NCBI GenBank assembly: GCA_024696005.1
Contig: JAILHF010000048.1
Location: 1 to 64,000 of the forward strand
DNA: 64,000 nucleotides
From: Lachnospiraceae bacterium
GTDB taxonomy: Bacteria > Bacillota > Clostridia > Lachnospirales > Lachnospiraceae
Reading direction: 5' to 3'
The notes under the pieces are model-generated. The model saw only the letters and a program-made list of their open reading frames with translations. It did no database searches and had not been told where the DNA came from. The translations under genes and the position numbers were made by a program. Positions 11,696-19,727 of this stretch are shown piece after piece. Position 1 is the first letter of the stretch. Each line of letters begins with the position of its first letter.

Positions 11696-14278
11696 TTACA
11701 GCCCCTTTCCGTGGCAATTCTTGTACTTCTTCCCGCTGCCGCAGGGGCAGGGATCGTTGGGATATACCTTTACGGCTTCGCGCTTTTTGGGTTGCTTCTG
11801 CAGCGATTCGTCCTTGTTGGTTCCCGTTACCTTGGCCACCTGTTCACGCTCCACCTTCTGTTCCACCTGCACATGATAGAGGAGGCGCACCGTATCTTCC
11901 TTGATCGCGCTCTCCATGGCACTGAACATGTCAAAGGCGCTGATCTTGAACTCCGTCAGCGGATCCTTCTGTCCCATGCTTGCAAGACCGCTGGCCTTCT
12001 CCAGCTGGTCCATGTCGTCAATGTGATTCATCCACTTGCGGTCGATCACGCGCAGAAGGATGACACGCTCCACTTCGCGGATCTGCTCGGGATCCGGGAA
12101 CTCCGCTTCCTTGGACTCGTAAAGCTTAACCGCCTCTTCCTTCAGCTGCTGCACGAGGGCGTTCTTTTTCCGCTCGGCACGCTCGGGGGTCACGGGCTCC
12201 AGAGGGATGATGGGAAGCAGAAGGTTGTTCAGCTCGTTCAGATCCCACTTGTCGGGATCACCGTCATCCCCGATGACCGTATCCACGCAACCTTCCACGA
12301 TATCCGTGATCATCTTGTAGACCACATCGCGCATGCTCTCGCCATCCAGAACGCGTCTGCGTTCCCCGTAGATGACTTCACGCTGTTCGTTCATCACCTG
12401 GTCATATTGCAGGACGTTCTTACGTCTGGAAAAGTTGTTGTTCTCGATGCGCTTCTGCGCCTTCTCGATCGCGTTGGAAAGCAGCTGGTGCTCGATCCTC
12501 TGGTTCTCCGCGATGCCCATCGCGTTAAAGGTCGCGATCAGGCGCTCGGAACCGAAGAGACGCATCAGATCGTCCTCCAGTGAGATATAGAACACCGACT
12601 CACCGGGATCGCCCTGACGTCCGGCACGACCGCGCAGCTGGTTATCGATTCGTCTCGATTCGTGACGCTCCGTGCCGATGATCAGCAGACCACCCAACTT
12701 GCGGGATTCTTCGTCGAGCTTGATATCGGTACCACGGCCGGCCATGTTGGTCGCGATCGTCACGGCCCCGTGGATTCCGGCATCCGCCACGATCTCGGCT
12801 TCCTGTTCATGGAATTTCGCATTCAGCACGTTATGCCGTATGCCCTCTTTCGTCAGAAGGCGGCTCAGTTCCTCGGAAGCATCGATGTTGATGGTACCCA
12901 CCAGTATGGGCTGTCCTTTCTCGTGCGCTTCCTTGATCCGCTCCACGATCTCGTGAAGCTTCTCCTTGCGTGTCTTGTATACGCAGTCGTTCTGGTCGAT
13001 ACGGGCAATGGGACGGTTGGTCGGGATCGTGATGACGTCCATTCCGTAGATATCACGGAATTCCTGTTCCTCCGTCAGAGCCGTACCGGTCATTCCGGCC
13101 TTTTTCTCAAACTTGTTAAAGAAATTCTGGAAGGTGATCGTCGCAAGAGTCATGGACTCACGCTTGATCTTCACATGCTCCTTCGCTTCGATGGCCTGGT
13201 GCAGGCCGTCGGAAAAACGGCGTCCCGGCATCAGACGTCCGGTAAAGGAATCGACGATGATGACCTTGTCGTCGTCCACCACATAATCCTGGTCCTTGAA
13301 CATCAGGTAATTGGCACGGAGCGCAAGGATCATGTTGTGCTGGATCTCGCTGTTTTCGGGATCCGCAAGGTTCTCGATATGGAAGAATTTCTCCACCCGG
13401 TCAACACCGCGGCTGGTCAGAGTCACGTTCTTGTCCTTTTCGTTCAGGACGAAATCCCCCGTCTCCTCTTCCTCACTCTGGGCTCCCATCATGGAATCCA
13501 TCACGGCATCGAGCTTGTAGATCATCTCTTCGTCCTTGCCGCGCTTCATCTGTTTCGCGAGCACATCGCACACTTCGTAGAGCTTGGTCGCCTTTCCGCT
13601 CTGACCGGAAATGATCAGAGGGGTACGGGCTTCGTCGATCAGGACCGAGTCCACCTCATCGATGATGGCGTAATGGAGGCCGCGCTGCACAAGCTGTTCC
13701 TTGTAGATGACCATGTTATCACGCAGATAATCAAAGCCCAGCTCGTTGTTCGTCACGTAGGTGATATCACAGTTATAAGCTTCCCGGCGCTCATCACTCT
13801 TCATGTCGTTGAGGATCACGCCGACCTTCAGTCCCAGGAACTCATGGATCTGTCCCATCCATTCCGCATCACGCTTGGCCAGATAATCATTGACCGTTAC
13901 GATGTAAACACCCTTTCCTTCCAGGGCATTCAGATATGCCGGCAATGTGGAGACGAGCGTCTTACCTTCACCGGTACGCATCTCGGCGATACGGCCCTGA
14001 TGAAGCACGATGCCGCCGATCAGCTGTACGCGGAAGTGCTCCATGTTGAGGACTCTGCGCCCCGCTTCCCTCACCGTTGCAAATGCCTCGGGGAGAAGCT
14101 GGTCAAGCGTTTCGCCCTCCCGGAAACGCTTACGGTACTCCGTCGTCTTTGCCCGCAGCTCCTCGTCCGAAAGCGCCATCATGGCATCCCGCATTCCTTC
14201 GATCTTGTCCACGATGGGTTTGATGCGCTTCAGCTCCCGTTCACTGTGGGTCCCGAAAATCTTATCGATCAAATTCAT
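11696..14278 (-). CDS. secA: Preprotein translocase ATPase SecA
   Basis: This 860-aa protein has Walker A MRTGEGKT (100-107), the [16 protein letters not shown] Walker B region (about 206-221), the preprotein cross-linking domain, the NMAGRGTD and [10 protein letters not shown] helicase motifs, and a complete C-terminal zinc finger ([14 protein letters not shown]). It drives Sec export through SecY, which is encoded at 45190-46509. It lies between buk and prfB. Secretion is clearly in demand: several signal-peptide and lipoprotein genes are in this window. Confidence 0.98.
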
Positions 14279-14280
14279 AT

Positions 14281-15345
14281 TTAATACTCCATAGCCTTTT
14301 CTTCACCGTTCAACACCCGAAGTCCGCCCTGGGCAAGAGCCAGCAGCTCGTCTTCTCCGGGATAGACCGTGATCGGTGCGATCCAGCTTACTTTTTTCTT
14401 AAATTCTTCGATCACATATTTGGAATATGCGATGCCGCCGGTAAAGATGATCTGATCCACCTTTCCTTCCAGAACGCAGGCCTGCGCGCCGATGTTCTTG
14501 CAGATCTGATAGATGAAGGCATCGTAGACTTCCTTTGCCTTTGCGTCTCCCTTGTCGATCATCTCTTCGACCACACGGGCGTCGTTCGTCCCGAGATAAG
14601 CGTTAAATCCGCCGTTGCCTACCAGCATCTTGTAAATGGTCTTCTCATCGTACTTGCCGGAGAAGCAGAGCTTTACAAGAGCTCCGGGAGGCACTGCACC
14701 CGAACGCTCCGGAGAAAAGGCTCCGTCGCCGTCCAGTGCATTGAACACATCCACGATCCGTCCGCCTTCGTGGGCACCGACGGATACACCGCCGCCCATG
14801 TGAACAACGATCAGACGCAGGGAATCGTAAGCCTTCCCCTGCTCCTTGGCATAACGCTTTGCGACTGCCTTCTGGTTCAGCGCATGGAACACGCTGGTAC
14901 GGGGCAGCTCGGGATGGCCGGAATATCTGGCCAGGCTCTGCAGCTCATCCACCACCACGGGATCCACGATATAGGAAGGGATCCCAACGGAATCCGCGAT
15001 CTCTCTTGCCAGGATGCCGCCCAGGTTGGAGGCGTGCTGTCCCTGCTTTCCGATCTTCAGATCGTTCAAAAGCGCATCGCTGACGGGATACGTGCCGCCG
15101 GGGATGGGCTTGAGCATGCCGCCGCGCCCTACCACTGCGGAAAGATCCTCAACCTTCACGCCTTTGGAAGTGATGAAATCCATAATGATCTTTTTCCGGA
15201 AATCCTTCTGGTCCACGATCGTCGCGAACTGTGCGATCTCTTCGGTGGAGTGGCGGAGCGTCTCCTCAAACAGGAGCTTCTCGTCCTCGAACACACCGAT
15301 CTTGGTGGATGTGGAACCCGGATTGATTATCAATAATTTAGCCAT
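14281..15345 (-). CDS. buk: Butyrate kinase
   Basis: This 354-aa ASKHA-family kinase begins with the [13 protein letters not shown] phosphate loop (5-17). [11 protein letters not shown] (about 175-185) and the FTGGIAYSK segment (about 302-310) follow, both typical of the butyrate/acetate kinase family. It converts butyryl phosphate and ADP to butyrate and ATP, the last step of the Ptb-Buk branch of butyrate fermentation. It follows ptb by 63 nt and precedes secA by 2 nt, so fermentation and export genes appear co-transcribed. Confidence 0.95.
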
Positions 15346-15408: not shown

Positions 15409-16326
15409 TCAGACGTTCTTCAGATGCTCTGCCACGATGGCACCAAGTGCCAGCGAGTTCACCTTTACTTCCTTGGAATCGGAACGGGAGGTCAGGATCA
15501 CGGGTGCCTTGGTTCCGGTCATGATATTGCCGTTCTTGCAGTCCACAAGATGGGTCAATGCCTTGTAGACCAGGTTTCCGGCGTGGATGTCCGGGAAGAG
15601 GATCACGTCGGCATCACCGGCGATCTTGCGGTCGGAAGCTCCCTTATGCTTTGCCGCTTCGGGATCGATCGCGATATCCAGGGAAAGAGGGCCGTCAACG
15701 ATGCAGCCGCTGATCTTTCCTTCCGCGTTCATCTTCGTCAGCTCGTCCGCTTCCACGGTCACGGGCATCTTGGGATTCACCACTTCAACCGCAGCCACGG
15801 GTGCCACCTTCGGGCACTCGATGCCGCAGGCATGAGCGATATCCACGGTATTCTCGATGATCGCTACCTTATCCTCCAGCGTAGGATAGGGAATGAATGC
15901 CACGTCCGTAAGGAACAGCAGGCCTTCGCGGCCTTTCATCTCGAACACGCACACATGGGAAAGCGTCTTGTCGGTACGCAGTCCCACTTCCTTATTCAGA
16001 ACACTCTTCAGGAAATTCTTGGTATCGATGAGCCCCTTCATGTACATGTCTGCCTTGCCGGTATGTACCAGCTCAACCGCCTTGGTAGCTGCTTCGATAT
16101 CGTCCTTCACATCCACTACTTCGAAATTCCCGAGATCGATGCCGAGCTCCTTGGCGATGGGCTCCATCTTGTCCTTATCACCTACCAGGATCGCATCCGC
16201 AATGCCGCGCTTTCTGGCCTCCTCAACAGCCTCAAGAACGGGGCCGTCCTGTGCCACTGCAACGGAAACCTTCTTGCGGCTTACGCTGTTAACCTTCGAC
16301 AACAGATCATCAAAACTCTTGCTCAT
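15409..16326 (-). CDS. ptb: Phosphate butyryltransferase
   Basis: This 305-aa member of the phosphate acetyl/butyryltransferase family has SVAVAQDGPVLEAV near the start, KGLIDTKNFLKSVL (about 95-108), LFLTDVAFIPYPTL (about 136-149), and a C-terminal DVILFPDIHAGN followed by NGNIMTGTKAPVI. It exchanges CoA for phosphate on butyryl-CoA to feed butyrate kinase. The adjacent buk settles butyryl over acetyl as the main substrate, although branched acyl-CoAs may also be used. A clear promoter lies 84 nt upstream, with AAAGGAG as ribosome binding site. Confidence 0.95.
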   Translation of the reverse strand: MSKSFDDLLSKVNSVSRKKVSVAVAQDGPVLEAVEEARKRGIADAILVGDKDKMEPIAKELGIDLGNFEVVDVKDDIEAATKAVELVHTGKADMYMKGLIDTKNFLKSVLNKEVGLRTDKTLSHVCVFEMKGREGLLFLTDVAFIPYPTLEDKVAIIENTVDIAHACGIECPKVAPVAAVEVVNPKMPVTVEADELTKMNAEGKISGCIVDGPLSLDIAIDPEAAKHKGASDRKIAGDADVILFPDIHAGNLVYKALTHLVDCKNGNIMTGTKAPVILTSRSDSKEVKVNSLALGAIVAEHLKNV

Positions 16327-16409: not shown

Positions 16410-16438
16410 ATTTTATTACAAGTCGTTTGGAAAATCAA
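16410..16438 (-). promoter_or_regulatory. Promoter of the ptb-buk-secA-prfB operon
   Basis: The minus strand reads TTGATT (16433-16438), 17 nt, TAAAAT (16410-16415). It lies between the 62-bp repeat array and ptb. Confidence 0.7.
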
Positions 16439-16439
16439 G

Positions 16440-16540
16440 TGCGGGCGTTCCGTTCCGTTTCGTTCCGTTTCGGGTGGTGTTCCTTTTCGTTTCGGATGGT
16501 GTTCCTTTTCGATTCGGGTGGTTGGGTGCGGGAAAAATGA
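16440..16540. repeat. Short degenerate GTTCCNTTTCG-rich repeats
   Basis: About 16440-16525 consists of imperfect copies of a GTTCC(G/T)TTTCG unit, including two 22-bp tandem copies of GGTGTTCCTTTTCGTTTCGG with small changes. No ORF fits this pattern. It borders the larger 62-bp array and shares its GTTCC/TTTCG words, so it may be a decayed part of it. Confidence 0.6.
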
Positions 16541-16620
16541 GGTATGCTCCCGGGTGAAAACCGCCTTGCAGGCTCCTTTACGGCTGTAGATCCGATCATT
16601 CCTCCTGGAATTACAGCCGC

Positions 16621-17290
16621 CGGAGAAAAAAAGGGACGGAAATTAGGTAAAATGGGATTTCCGTCCCCTAGTTTGGTTTACTCAGGAGAAAAGAAGGGAC
16701 GAGAATCAGGTAAATCGGCGTTTCCGTTCCCTCGTTTCAGTTGATGGGGCGAAAAAAGGGACGAGAATCAGGTAAATCGGCGTTTCCGTTCCCTCGTTTC
16801 AGTTGATTGGGCGAAAAAAGGGACGAAAATCAGGCAATCCGGATTTCCGTTCCCTCGTTTCGGTTGACTGACCGAAAAAAAGGAATGAAAATCAGGCAAT
16901 CCGGATTTCCGTTCCCTCGTTTCGGTTGACTGACCGAAAAAAAGGAACGAAAATCAGGCAATCCGGATTTCCGTTCCCTCGTTTCGGTTGACTGACCGAA
17001 AAAAAGGAACGAAATTCAGGCAATCCGGATTTCCGTTCCCTCGTTTCAGTTGATGGGGCGAAAAAAGGGACGAAAATCAGGCAATCCGGATTTCCGTTCC
17101 CTAGTTTGGTTTACTCAAGAGAAAAGAAAGGACGAGAATCAGGAAAATCGGTGTTTCCGTTCCCTCGTTTCGGTTGACTGGGCGAAAAAAGGGAAGAAAT
17201 TTAGGAAAACCGGGATTTCCGGCCATGGGGTTTGAGGCCCGGAAGAAAAAGGAACGGAATTTAGACAAACACGGATTTGCGGGTCTTGTG
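16621..17290 (-). repeat. 62-bp tandem array of about 11 terminator-like units
   Basis: Units start near 16633, 16696, 16758, 16820, 16882, 16944, 17006, 17067, 17129, 17191 and a decayed copy near 17251, so the period is 62 bp with 1-2 bp jitter. On the minus strand each unit reads as a hairpin, GGAACGGAAAT pairing with ATTT(T)CGTTCC around a 12-nt loop, followed at once by six or seven T. That is the form of an intrinsic terminator. The unit nearest ptb has a perfect 11-bp stem; the middle units keep one G-U pair or one mismatch. A second small hairpin, TTTCGGT/ACCGAAA, fills the rest of several units. The period is not a multiple of three and no conserved ORF runs through. Confidence 0.85.
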
Positions 17291-17308: not shown

Positions 17309-17351
17309 ACCACATGTGGTACTTGCAAACACAGAACATTTGTTCTATTAT
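17309..17351 (+). promoter_or_regulatory. LexA-controlled promoter of the HAD gene
   Basis: The plus strand reads TTGCAA (17323-17328), 17 nt, TATTAT (17346-17351). The spacer is filled by AGAACATTTGTTCT (17333-17346), a match to the Firmicute LexA box GAAC-N4-GTTC. A perfect 12-bp palindrome ACCACATGTGGT (17309-17320) sits just upstream of the -35 and could bind another regulator. Confidence 0.75.
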
Positions 17352-17357
17352 CACATC

Positions 17358-17369
17358 AAACAAATGTTC
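17358..17369 (+). promoter_or_regulatory. Second LexA-like box
   Basis: AAACAAATGTTC is one mismatch from GAAC-N4-GTTC and ends in the G of a GTTCG half-site. It is centred 24 bp downstream of the first box, between the predicted start site and the HAD gene. Tandem boxes would give tighter SOS repression. Confidence 0.55.
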
Positions 17370-17398
17370 GATTTCGGCAAGCAAAAAGGAGGTGCCTT

Positions 17399-17755
17399 AT
17401 GAGCGATTATCAGATCATTGCAGTAGATTTTGACGGTACGCTTTGCTACAGTGACTGGCCCGCCCTCGGCGAGCCCAACCTGGCACTGATCGCTTATCTC
17501 CGGGAATGGAAACGGATGGGTAATAAACTGATCCTCTGGACCTGCCGTGCAGGAGAGCCTCTGGAAATGGCACTCCGCTGGTGCCGTGAATATGAGCTGG
17601 AATTTGATGCGGTGAACGATAACCTTCCGGAAATCGTGGAGAAGTACGGAAACAATTCCCGCAAGATCACCTGTGATTACTATATTGATGACAGGGCATG
17701 CCTGCCGGAAATGTTCGCGCAGTTGGCAGCGGGCGGTCTGCAGATGGCGGGATAA
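17399..17755 (+). CDS. Small HAD-superfamily hydrolase, likely SOS-regulated
   Basis: This 118-aa protein has the HAD motif I nucleophile DFDGT (10-14), ILWTCR (about 46-51) as motif II region, and a C-terminal DDRA (about 101-104). It is a minimal HAD phosphatase-like fold of a type also seen in phage and mobile DNA. The start at 17399 is set by AAAAAGGAGG just upstream; the longer open frame begins in the repeat array. LexA-type boxes overlap its promoter. It is alone on its strand, flanked by repeat arrays on both sides, which suggests an acquired gene. Substrate unknown. Confidence 0.85.
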   Translation: MSDYQIIAVDFDGTLCYSDWPALGEPNLALIAYLREWKRMGNKLILWTCRAGEPLEMALRWCREYELEFDAVNDNLPEIVEKYGNNSRKITCDYYIDDRACLPEMFAQLAAGGLQMAG

Positions 17756-17849: not shown

Positions 17850-18065
17850 AGGAATCGGCAGTCCTGCTTCCCCTGATCGGAAACATCCGGTCTTCCGGGG
17901 CTCGGCAGCTACTGCTCCCCCGGTCCGAAGCATCCGGTCTTCCGGGGCTCGGCAGCTACTGCTCCCCCGGTCCGATACATCCGGTCTTTCAGTGCTCGGC
18001 AGGCCAACTTCCCCGGGCCGAATCATCCGGTCTTTCAAGACTCAGCAGAACCTGCCCCGACGCGC
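17850..18065. repeat. 47-bp hairpin repeat array downstream of the DHHW genes
   Basis: About four to five copies of a 47-bp unit are present. The clearest two run from about 17886 and 17933 and are nearly identical; flanking copies are diverged. Each unit contains CCGGGG...CCCCGG with inner GCAG/CTGC, so it can fold into a nested hairpin on either strand. There is no T run, so these are not simple terminators. Together with the pseudogene they occupy the stretch 17756-18407, where I see no intact gene. Confidence 0.75.
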
Positions 18066-18425
18066 CCGAACTCCCGCATCTCAGTAGATCCCGCCGATAC
18101 CGGTATCCTGATCCAGGGTGCCCAGGTTATAAAGGATCAACACCTCTTTGATCTCGGGATGCTCGTTGATGAATTTGGAAGACCCGCCCTTTTAGTAGCG
18201 GGTGTCAAAGATATAAAGCGTGTGATAACGGTTCAGCAAAATCGGGACCATGCTGTTGGCATAGCTGTCCTTAACGAGGGCAATGGCTCCCTGCTCCTCC
18301 GGCACCGCCTCATTGGTGATGGTGATAAAGCTGTGCTGATTGCTCAGAAAGAGGGAGTACTTCAAGACTCAGCAGAACCTGCCCCGACGCGCCCGAACTC
18401 CCGCATCTCAGTAGATCCCGCCGAT
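18034..18425. repeat. 65-bp identical direct repeat, copies at 18034-18098 and 18361-18425
   Basis: The two copies start TTCAAGACTCAGCAGAAC and end GATCCCGCCGAT, and are identical over 65 bp. They are 327 bp apart. They cover the last codons and 3' flank of the pseudogene and of the intact DHHW gene. The coding sequence beyond them differs by about 20%, so identity is confined to this patch. Confidence 0.9.
18081..18360 (-). pseudogene. Truncated DHHW-family paralogue (3' end only)
   Basis: The translation matches the last 93 or so residues of the intact DHHW gene at 18408-19727 in one frame, at roughly 85% identity by eye, and has the same C-terminus GTLDQDTGIGGIY. It begins abruptly at a GTAC that corresponds to 18684-18687 in the intact gene, so the first three quarters are gone. 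One in-frame TAA replaces a Tyr codon (RY-stop-KGG in place of RYYKGG). Many differences are synonymous, so the copy was probably functional before truncation. Confidence 0.9.
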
Positions 18426-19727
18426 GCCGGTATCCTGATCCAGCGTGCCGAGATTGTAGAGGATCAGGACCTCGCTGATCTCGGGATGCTCGTTGATGAA
18501 CTTTGACGGCCCGCCCTTATAATACCGGGTATCAAAGATATAGACCGTATGATAATGGTTCAGCAGAAACGGCACAAAGCTGTTTGCGTAACTGTCCTTT
18601 ACCAGGGCGATGGCCCCGGCTTCCTCTTCCACCGCATCGTTGGTGATGGTGATGAAGCTGCGCTGGTTGCTCAAAAAAAGCGAGTACTTGTCGCGCTTTT
18701 CCAGATAGTTCAGGTCATAGGGGCTGTCACTCTGCGCATCACCGTAATCCACCGTCAGCTGCCAGGACGGATCGCTGTAGAGAACGATCTCATCACTTCC
18801 GAAATACGGGTCGTTGAGCTTGGAATAGATCGTCCCCTGAAAGTCCTTCGTGACCGTCTCGCAGGCGTATTCCGAAAGCGGCACGGGCGCAAGCCCCTCA
18901 GAAGCGCAAAAGGCAAGGTATCCGACATAAGCACCGTCGGTCGTCCAGTGATGATCGGTACGATAAAACAGTGCCTCTCCGTTGACGGAAGACATCATGC
19001 CCTCCATAACGGGCGCCATGTCGCCATATGCATCCGAGGCGTCTCTGCCTTCCCCGCCGGCTGCCGCATGCAGGGCTGCCGATGCATTGATGCAGTCTGC
19101 CTTTCCCTGTATCTCCCCGTAGATCCGGTCGATCGTCTGCTGCTGCACCGCCGCGGGAAGTTCTCCCATCGGCCGCTCACTCTTTAAGCCGTACATTTCC
19201 TGTGCCACGCGGTCCGGTGCGTTTGCGGGAAGCTTGTCCTTATAGATGCTCACAGCCGTGGGCACCAGCATCAGGCTCACATGCGCATGCTCCACCTTCT
19301 CCGCAAGCTTGCTCCACTGCGCGATATCCTTCTCCACATTCTTCGGCGCTTCATAAGCGTTGATCAGATACCCATCCTCTGCCAGATAGACGCCGCCGAG
19401 CTCTTTCTGGCCTGCCAGACGCTTAGCCCCGCTCGCAATTCCCAGAAGCTCGTCCCGCTTCGGGAAATGATCCGAGACATAGCTTTTCACACCCTCCGTA
19501 AGGCTCCCCGAACGCAACGCGGCAAAACTGAATTCCGGCCAGGACGCCAGTTTCCGGTTCTCGCTCTCGGAAAAGTCCTTCTTTTCCGTAACAAGAAACG
19601 AAAACGCAAATACAAGGATCATGGCCGCGATCAGATAAACCGTGACGCGCTTCGTGACAGAAACCTTTTCATTCTCCGTTATATTTTCTGTTGTATTGTC
19701 TTTCGTTTTCTTTTCCATCCTAAACAT
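18408..19727 (-). CDS. DHHW-motif protein, AlgX/AlgJ-like, glycan O-acetylation
   Basis: This 439-aa protein has an N-terminal membrane anchor (about 27-46) and an extracytoplasmic SGNH-like domain with the family motif DHHW (258-261). KDSYANSF (about 381-388) probably holds the catalytic serine. DHHW proteins act with MBOAT acyltransferases to acetylate surface polysaccharides, and the next gene upstream is such an MBOAT. The start is uncertain between the ATG at 19727 and one three codons later (19718); neither has a strong ribosome binding site. It is the last gene of the operon and has a truncated paralogue just downstream. Confidence 0.88.
   Translation of the reverse strand: MFRMEKKTKDNTTENITENEKVSVTKRVTVYLIAAMILVFAFSFLVTEKKDFSESENRKLASWPEFSFAALRSGSLTEGVKSYVSDHFPKRDELLGIASGAKRLAGQKELGGVYLAEDGYLINAYEAPKNVEKDIAQWSKLAEKVEHAHVSLMLVPTAVSIYKDKLPANAPDRVAQEMYGLKSERPMGELPAAVQQQTIDRIYGEIQGKADCINASAALHAAAGGEGRDASDAYGDMAPVMEGMMSSVNGEALFYRTDHHWTTDGAYVGYLAFCASEGLAPVPLSEYACETVTKDFQGTIYSKLNDPYFGSDEIVLYSDPSWQLTVDYGDAQSDSPYDLNYLEKRDKYSLFLSNQRSFITITNDAVEEEAGAIALVKDSYANSFVPFLLNHYHTVYIFDTRYYKGGPSKFINEHPEISEVLILYNLGTLDQDTGIGGIY

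Follow-up and report, generated by a model that had tools for sequence, protein, structure and literature searches.

We analysed a 64,000-nucleotide stretch of DNA from Lachnospiraceae bacterium GCA_024696005.1 (contig JAILHF010000048.1, positions 1-64,000 of the forward strand), referred to below as the window. A 62-bp tandem repeat is located in it between the divergent 5' ends of ptb and of a small HAD-type phosphatase gene, in the following setting:

11696-14278: secA, after the butyrate kinase gene
14281-15345: butyrate kinase gene, after ptb
15409-16326, minus strand: ptb, phosphate butyryltransferase (TIGR02706, profile match)
16410-16438, minus strand: promoter-like site of ptb, TTGATT-17-TAAAAT, which adjoins the array and is not part of it
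16452-16522, unstranded: 22-bp direct repeat of about 2.6 copies between the array and the ptb promoter-like site (Tandem Repeats Finder)
16620-17285, minus strand (the strand of the T tracts): 62-bp array, head to tail, with ten units clear and one degenerate, 60-63 bp each (Tandem Repeats Finder, unit model and pattern)
17399-17755, plus strand: gene for a small HAD-type phosphatase, divergent from ptb (best match BT0820 family, 90 bits, below the cut-off of 165)
18408-19727, minus strand: gene for a DHHW protein (PF14286), the closest gene from which read-through would run leftward into the array

In the window the ptb upstream region is longer by about 2 kb, and part of this surplus is a second copy of a 3' portion of the DHHW gene. 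This fragment is tandemly duplicated (18034-18362, 86% identical to 18361-18689). Compared with the relative L032, the fragment showed 82.5% identity over 280 bp and the intact gene 78.4% over 584 bp, a rough comparison as the stretches differ. Upstream of the small HAD gene two palindromes at 17330-17376 resemble LexA/SOS boxes, and similar boxes precede the match at a short distance in 5 of the 18 homologous congener loci (L112, L115, L116, L119 and L121). The HAD gene is present in 14 of 35 genomes of the genus including the source genome, and some of them carry more than one. Plus-strand promoter-like matches within the array were located at 16864 and 16926. The five Rfam matches in the window comprised an FMN riboswitch, an S10 leader and three tRNAs, with no family at the array; at L119 and L121 no Rfam match reached the gathering score.

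Tandem Repeats Finder placed the array at 16627-17221 (period 62, 9.6 copies) and reported a further period of 185 bp, corresponding to three units. The unit cores w1 to w11 start at 16633, 16696, 16758, 16820, 16882, 16944, 17006, 17067, 17129, 17191 and 17251, with a spacing of 60-63 bp. Our unit model recovered w1-w10; the degenerate w11 (17251) lies outside the Tandem Repeats Finder array and was seen only by a pattern with three mismatches. A first-pass annotation of this DNA had described a head-to-tail repeat of roughly 62 bp in about eleven copies, and both Tandem Repeats Finder and the unit cores bear this out. Its span of 16410-17290 narrows to about 16620-17285 for the array itself, as the ptb promoter-like site and the separate 22-bp repeat lie outside it. 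Each unit consists of a 34-35 bp quasi-palindrome with an A-rich tract before it on the plus strand; the minus strand thus reads as a hairpin followed by a T-rich tract, which is T6-T7 in most units. As annotated earlier, the minus-strand stem is GGAACGGAAAT/ATTT(T)CGTTCC followed by the T run, here T6-T7. In several units an outer stem, CCGAAA...TTTCGG, closes over the T tract.

Scoring the units with a terminator predictor had been suggested together with that annotation. For this we used our own implementation of a TransTermHP-like scheme with self-chosen cut-offs, the strict cut being a hairpin of -6 or lower and a tail of -4 or lower. The units scored as follows:

16633-16667, minus strand: w1, perfect 11-bp stem GGGACGGAAAT/ATTTCCGTCCC, 13-nt loop, T7; strong (hairpin -7.3, tail -4.95)
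16696-16792, minus strand: w2 and w3, T tract kept, stem broken by mismatches; fail the score
16820-17100, minus strand: w4-w8, strong predicted terminators (hairpin -8.9 to -14.7, tail -4.2 to -4.8), mutual identity 79-98%
17129-17285, minus strand: w9, w10 and the degenerate w11; fail the score (w9 is 82-92% identical to w3 and w2)

Six of the eleven units (w1 and w4-w8, hairpins -7.3 to -14.7) passed the strict cut on the minus strand and five did not, and there was no strict rightward site in the array. The form and the leftward direction of intrinsic terminators, as well as the perfect 11-bp stem of the unit nearest ptb, were therefore described correctly before, whereas the figure of about ten terminators stands for w1 and w4-w8 only. 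The five failing units retain T-rich tracts (tails -3.4 to -4.2) and fail by their stems. In 200 dinucleotide shuffles of the array a mean of 0.08 and a maximum of one strict minus-strand site were obtained, compared with the six observed, and these six belong to only ten strict sites on both strands of the entire 64-kb window. At the lax cut the array contains seven leftward sites versus a shuffle mean of 3.8-4.0 and a maximum of seven, which is not unusual. Therefore, it is the strength of the sites and not their number that stands out. A consensus terminator scan, which considers loops of 3-8 nt only, called none of the units. Between the DHHW gene and the ptb promoter the only strict leftward sites are those of the array, whose strong units end roughly 190 bp before the ptb promoter-like site; a weaker leftward site (hairpin -5.6) is found at 16391-16377. 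Leftward read-through is probably stopped by the array, as a by-product.

The strong units are closely related to each other. Since w4-w8 share 79-98% pairwise identity, five of the six strong units are near-copies and probably derive from one expansion, as judged from their sequences. The non-terminators w2, w3 and w9 form a second group with 82-92% identity. The T tract is kept in most of the eleven units even where the stem is broken. Among the stem changes three pairs are altered on both sides, in six cells, values reached by 4 and 3 of 500 shuffles, respectively. The covariation score of the stems was reached by none of 500 shuffles, but a partner slid by two columns still gives two pairs in three cells. 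These two-sided changes could reflect selection for termination or quasi-palindrome correction. A covariance model, R1, held only three pairs and was set aside.

The repeat family, termed family A, occurs at two loci in the source genome, the ptb array and a second array of five units (b1-b5) of about 61 bp at L002 on contig C17. With the unit model, scoring the best 150 of 1651 candidates, we obtained 15 array-strand matches at E <= 1 (ten in the ptb array and five in L002) and three weak opposite-strand echoes of the ptb array. Many scattered genomic copies unrelated to transcription direction would have spoken against a terminator function according to the first-pass annotation; by the unit model there are two loci only. 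L002 is flanked by convergent genes, one for a GH94-domain protein and one for an MBL-fold hydrolase; no promoter-like site was seen in the region scanned. One of its five units, b5, is a strict terminator and lies about 31 nt past the hydrolase stop codon; the GH94 gene has its own separate strict terminator. Counting both arrays, nine of the eleven units outside the w4-w8 block are without terminator form. In both arrays the T-tract strand faces the right-hand gene (n = 2). The end units are alike, as w1 and b1 both read GGGACGG...CCGTCCCC and w10, b2 and b4 have a CCGGCCA variant in common, which suggests that a short array rather than a single unit was copied between the loci. This remains tentative given the identity of only 55-74% between units of the two arrays.

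In the other genomes and records searched, family A was not found as an array. The search of related genomes, also proposed earlier, covered 34 congeners with the best 150 candidates per genome, where the one weak match was an ordinary lone terminator, and 298 other genomes of the family sample (one of them a congener already in the genus search) with the best 18 candidates each, which gave one weak lone match (E 9.6e-4); with such best-candidate scoring weak distant copies may be missed. By blastn, the array was found in none of 39 relatives and in no phage or plasmid records. A pattern scan of IMG/VR returned two contigs, both from the same metagenome, that carry a single site apiece; L268 showed no tandem repeat, and we took these matches as chance or unrelated. 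Likewise, the 3' flanks of ten MBL-hydrolase relatives (L227-L236, the source locus L226 being left out) contained no array and had differing neighbours; in L227 a GGGACGG repeat directly follows the hydrolase gene.

Judged by Ptb, the nearest named relatives are L031-L035 (93-97%; the rumen, the omasum or a rumen project appears in four of the five titles), and they do not carry the 62-bp array before ptb. The gene directly before ptb is the DHHW gene in L032, L033 and L035 and another gene in L031 and L034. L031, L033 and L034 share the ptb promoter-like site, and L035 has a similar one; that of L032 was missed by the pattern. We further compared 80 ptb loci, 75 of which had enough upstream sequence (five were dropped), for sites facing ptb in the 500 bp before it, and the result depends on the cut-off (4, 22 or 52 of 75 loci with sites). 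At the strict cut 71 loci had no terminator and four had one. At the middle cut 53 had none, 18 one and four two, and at the lax cut a site was present in 52 and absent in 23. L032-L035 showed no ptb-facing terminator at the strict or middle cut, and the window itself has one strict site in this frame. As 71 of 75 loci are without a strict site and 22 have sites at the middle cut, insulation of ptb by strong predicted terminators is not conserved, and weaker ones are not rare. A Butyrivibrio MAG (L108:561-758) carries about six copies of a 32-bp palindromic unit of unrelated sequence upstream of ptb.

Further palindromic tandem arrays were found in a census of Tandem Repeats Finder places with a score of at least 90 outside predicted long ORFs, which misses L002 (too diverged) and L119 (coding filter; found in another Tandem Repeats Finder run). 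Arrays were called palindromic at z <= -3 against 60 mononucleotide shuffles on at least one strand, a cut set after the values had been seen. In the 614,280 bases sampled from the source genome (16%) there were eight distinct intergenic repeat places, six palindromic and two not. The six other scored arrays of this genome (the 47-bp array of the window, L135, L145, two at L151 and L165) are unrelated in sequence to family A and contain no strict or middle-cut terminator on either strand. That of the window (17855-18034) is a 47-bp tandem repeat of 3.8 copies with palindromic units, without terminator sites and unrelated to the 62-bp array. At L151:5886-6697 (genome G000, contig C8) an 11-copy array of 74 bp lies between a normal terminator and a promoter-like site, which it directly precedes; the inner C-run/G-run stem of its units varies in length. 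The consensus scan placed eight weak leftward sites inside it and nine in the region versus a shuffle mean of 2.7, and the lax score gave two rightward sites versus a shuffle mean of 0.17. A 75-bp array with a similar GGCTAACAC-type core, also unrelated to family A, is present at L145.

In the congener G013 all three repeat places in 222,716 sampled bases were palindromic. This genome has its own GACACGT...ACGTGTC family at L119, upstream of its HAD gene, and at L170, with no strict, middle or lax terminator in either array. The comparison samples (G040, G002, G030 and the 80 ptb loci; 1,233,117 bases) contained four places, of which two were palindromic: L188 in the congener G040, with a strict terminator on each strand, and L108, with one middle-cut site. 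As the samples were non-random and the counts small, this pattern is a lead and not a rate. A strongly palindromic interspersed element of about 150-200 bp was also seen at L119:1105-1305. G013 has 18 matches to it and G048 has 22 (one place or more being counted on both strands), and the other 33 of 35 genus genomes have none.

In our judgement the array is probably a lineage-private palindromic minisatellite that grew out of a hairpin of the terminator type, with termination in one direction as its by-product. The founding unit would have been a hairpin-plus-T-tract element of the intrinsic-terminator type, multiplied head to tail through unequal exchange or through slippage of replication at the hairpin. 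The similar end units suggest that a short array was then probably copied between the two loci, and at ptb a renewed expansion would have passed through the near-identical block w4-w8. In a leftward RNA six of the eleven units would form a hairpin followed by a U tract, and going by this anatomy transcripts from the DHHW gene across the HAD gene would stop before the ptb promoter. Termination is most likely a by-product of the nature of the unit and not the reason for eleven copies. On the sequence evidence this is the best-supported reading, based on the 185-bp period, the w4-w8 block, the two loci, the absence in relatives and the other arrays without strict terminators. A minisatellite and nothing else could be questioned by the T tracts that outlast the stems, the two-sided stem changes and the like orientation of both arrays (n = 2); the weak sites in L151 and the strict site on each strand of L188 also speak against it.

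The first-pass annotation had proposed a transcriptional firebreak for the butyrate-secA operon, that is, terminators kept or amplified to stop DHHW read-through, antisense to the HAD gene, before ptb-buk-secA. The six strict one-way terminators, with no other strict leftward site between ptb and the DHHW gene, would suit this role, as would their end roughly 190 bp before the ptb promoter. Besides, some insulation is not rare, since 22 of the 75 other Lachnospiraceae ptb loci have one or two looser-cut sites. However, L031-L035 have no array, 71 of 75 loci have no strict terminator, and in L032-L035 the looser cut does not bring up any either. Most of the strong units are copies of one another, four of the five L002 units are not strong, nine of the eleven units of both arrays outside the w4-w8 block have lost the terminator form, and six unrelated arrays do without strict terminators. 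Moreover, a single good intrinsic terminator normally suffices. Selection of a firebreak for the butyrate operon is possible, but the comparative sequence evidence leans against it and we regard it as unlikely. The units could instead act at the DNA level, as protein-binding sites or by A-tract curvature affecting the ptb or the HAD promoter. In line with this, the loop is conserved as well as the stem, the array sits between two divergent promoter-like sites, and 62 bp is arithmetically close to six helical turns. Yet L002 sits between two convergent genes, where the scan showed no promoter-like site, the periods of other arrays differ, and relatives with the same ptb promoter lack the array, which makes this explanation very improbable.

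A selfish or REP-like repeat had been named as the alternative to the firebreak. This is nearer to the findings, although the family is not dispersed and the genome has no Y1/RAYT match. In its specific form, the unit would descend from RAYT repeats of the genus with a GGGACGG core and would have become tandem after loss of the transposase. Y1_Tnp/RAYT genes (PF01797, E <= 0.001) were found in 15 of 35 genus genomes and in 5 of 14 control genomes, and GGGACGG repeats lie near four of the five inspected Y1 transposase loci (L168, L262, L265 and L266). The source genome contains ten matches to GGGGACGGTTCTNTGATYG at up to two mismatches, including two inverted pairs, with none for the reversed control pattern, and w1 and b1 carry GGGACGG...CCGTCCC. 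On the other hand, the same search found no Y1_Tnp match in the source genome (G000, 99.94% complete), and the fifth Y1 locus, L267, is without GGGACGG. Exact GGGACGG is confined to w1 and b1 within family A, where it forms the stem itself, whereas in the REPs seen it is enclosed by the arms of another hairpin; the unit otherwise has no match to these REPs, and a shared heptamer is weak evidence of descent. Instead of dispersed copies or inverted pairs, family A shows two loci with head-to-tail units. In tagged REPs a short hairpin carries, at one of its ends, an unpaired GTAG or CGTC tag (PMC3733652). In family A no such unpaired tag end was found by inspection, and CGTC lies inside the stem. 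Descent of family A from REPs is possible, and as an account of the array we consider it doubtful.

The palindromic minisatellite with termination as a by-product thus remains our preferred reading. A broader and rather speculative idea is that some Lachnospiraceae make species-private tandem quasi-palindrome families of about 47-77 bp by an undescribed, hairpin-acting and sequence-blind process, and that one of them became a one-way multi-copy barrier whose copy number tunes read-through. Should leftward transcripts truly end in the array, the number of its units would naturally set the level of read-through into the secA-containing operon. Even if termination is a by-product, the array hints at a way in which terminator hairpins can give rise to minisatellites, and it draws attention to several sequence-unrelated palindromic arrays within a single genome.

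Compared with known systems, the array resembles intrinsic terminators in that a hairpin is directly followed by T6-T7 on one strand in six of eleven units. It differs from them by its eleven copies in a row, five of them defective, by units with a 13-nt loop or inner mismatches and by its position, which is not next to a leftward gene end. Among the matches listed in our literature searches (titles and abstract starts) there was no description of a tandem terminator array. REP/REPIN elements with RAYT (PMC3733652, PMC3116915) are likewise intergenic palindromes, and a GGGACGG core occurs near Y1 genes of the genus; unlike these, the family is found at two loci, head to tail, with another hairpin layout and without a Y1/RAYT match. 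The array is not of the CRISPR type either, as the stretches between the cores are themselves repeated among units. A further comparison is offered by bacterial minisatellites and tandem repeats of the MIRU-VNTR type. The array shares with them units of about 60 bp, the intergenic position, a higher-order period and a second locus with diverged copies, and it shows both head-to-tail copies and multi-unit duplication (periods of 62 and 185 bp; w4-w8 block). It departs from them in that each unit is a quasi-palindrome with a T tract.
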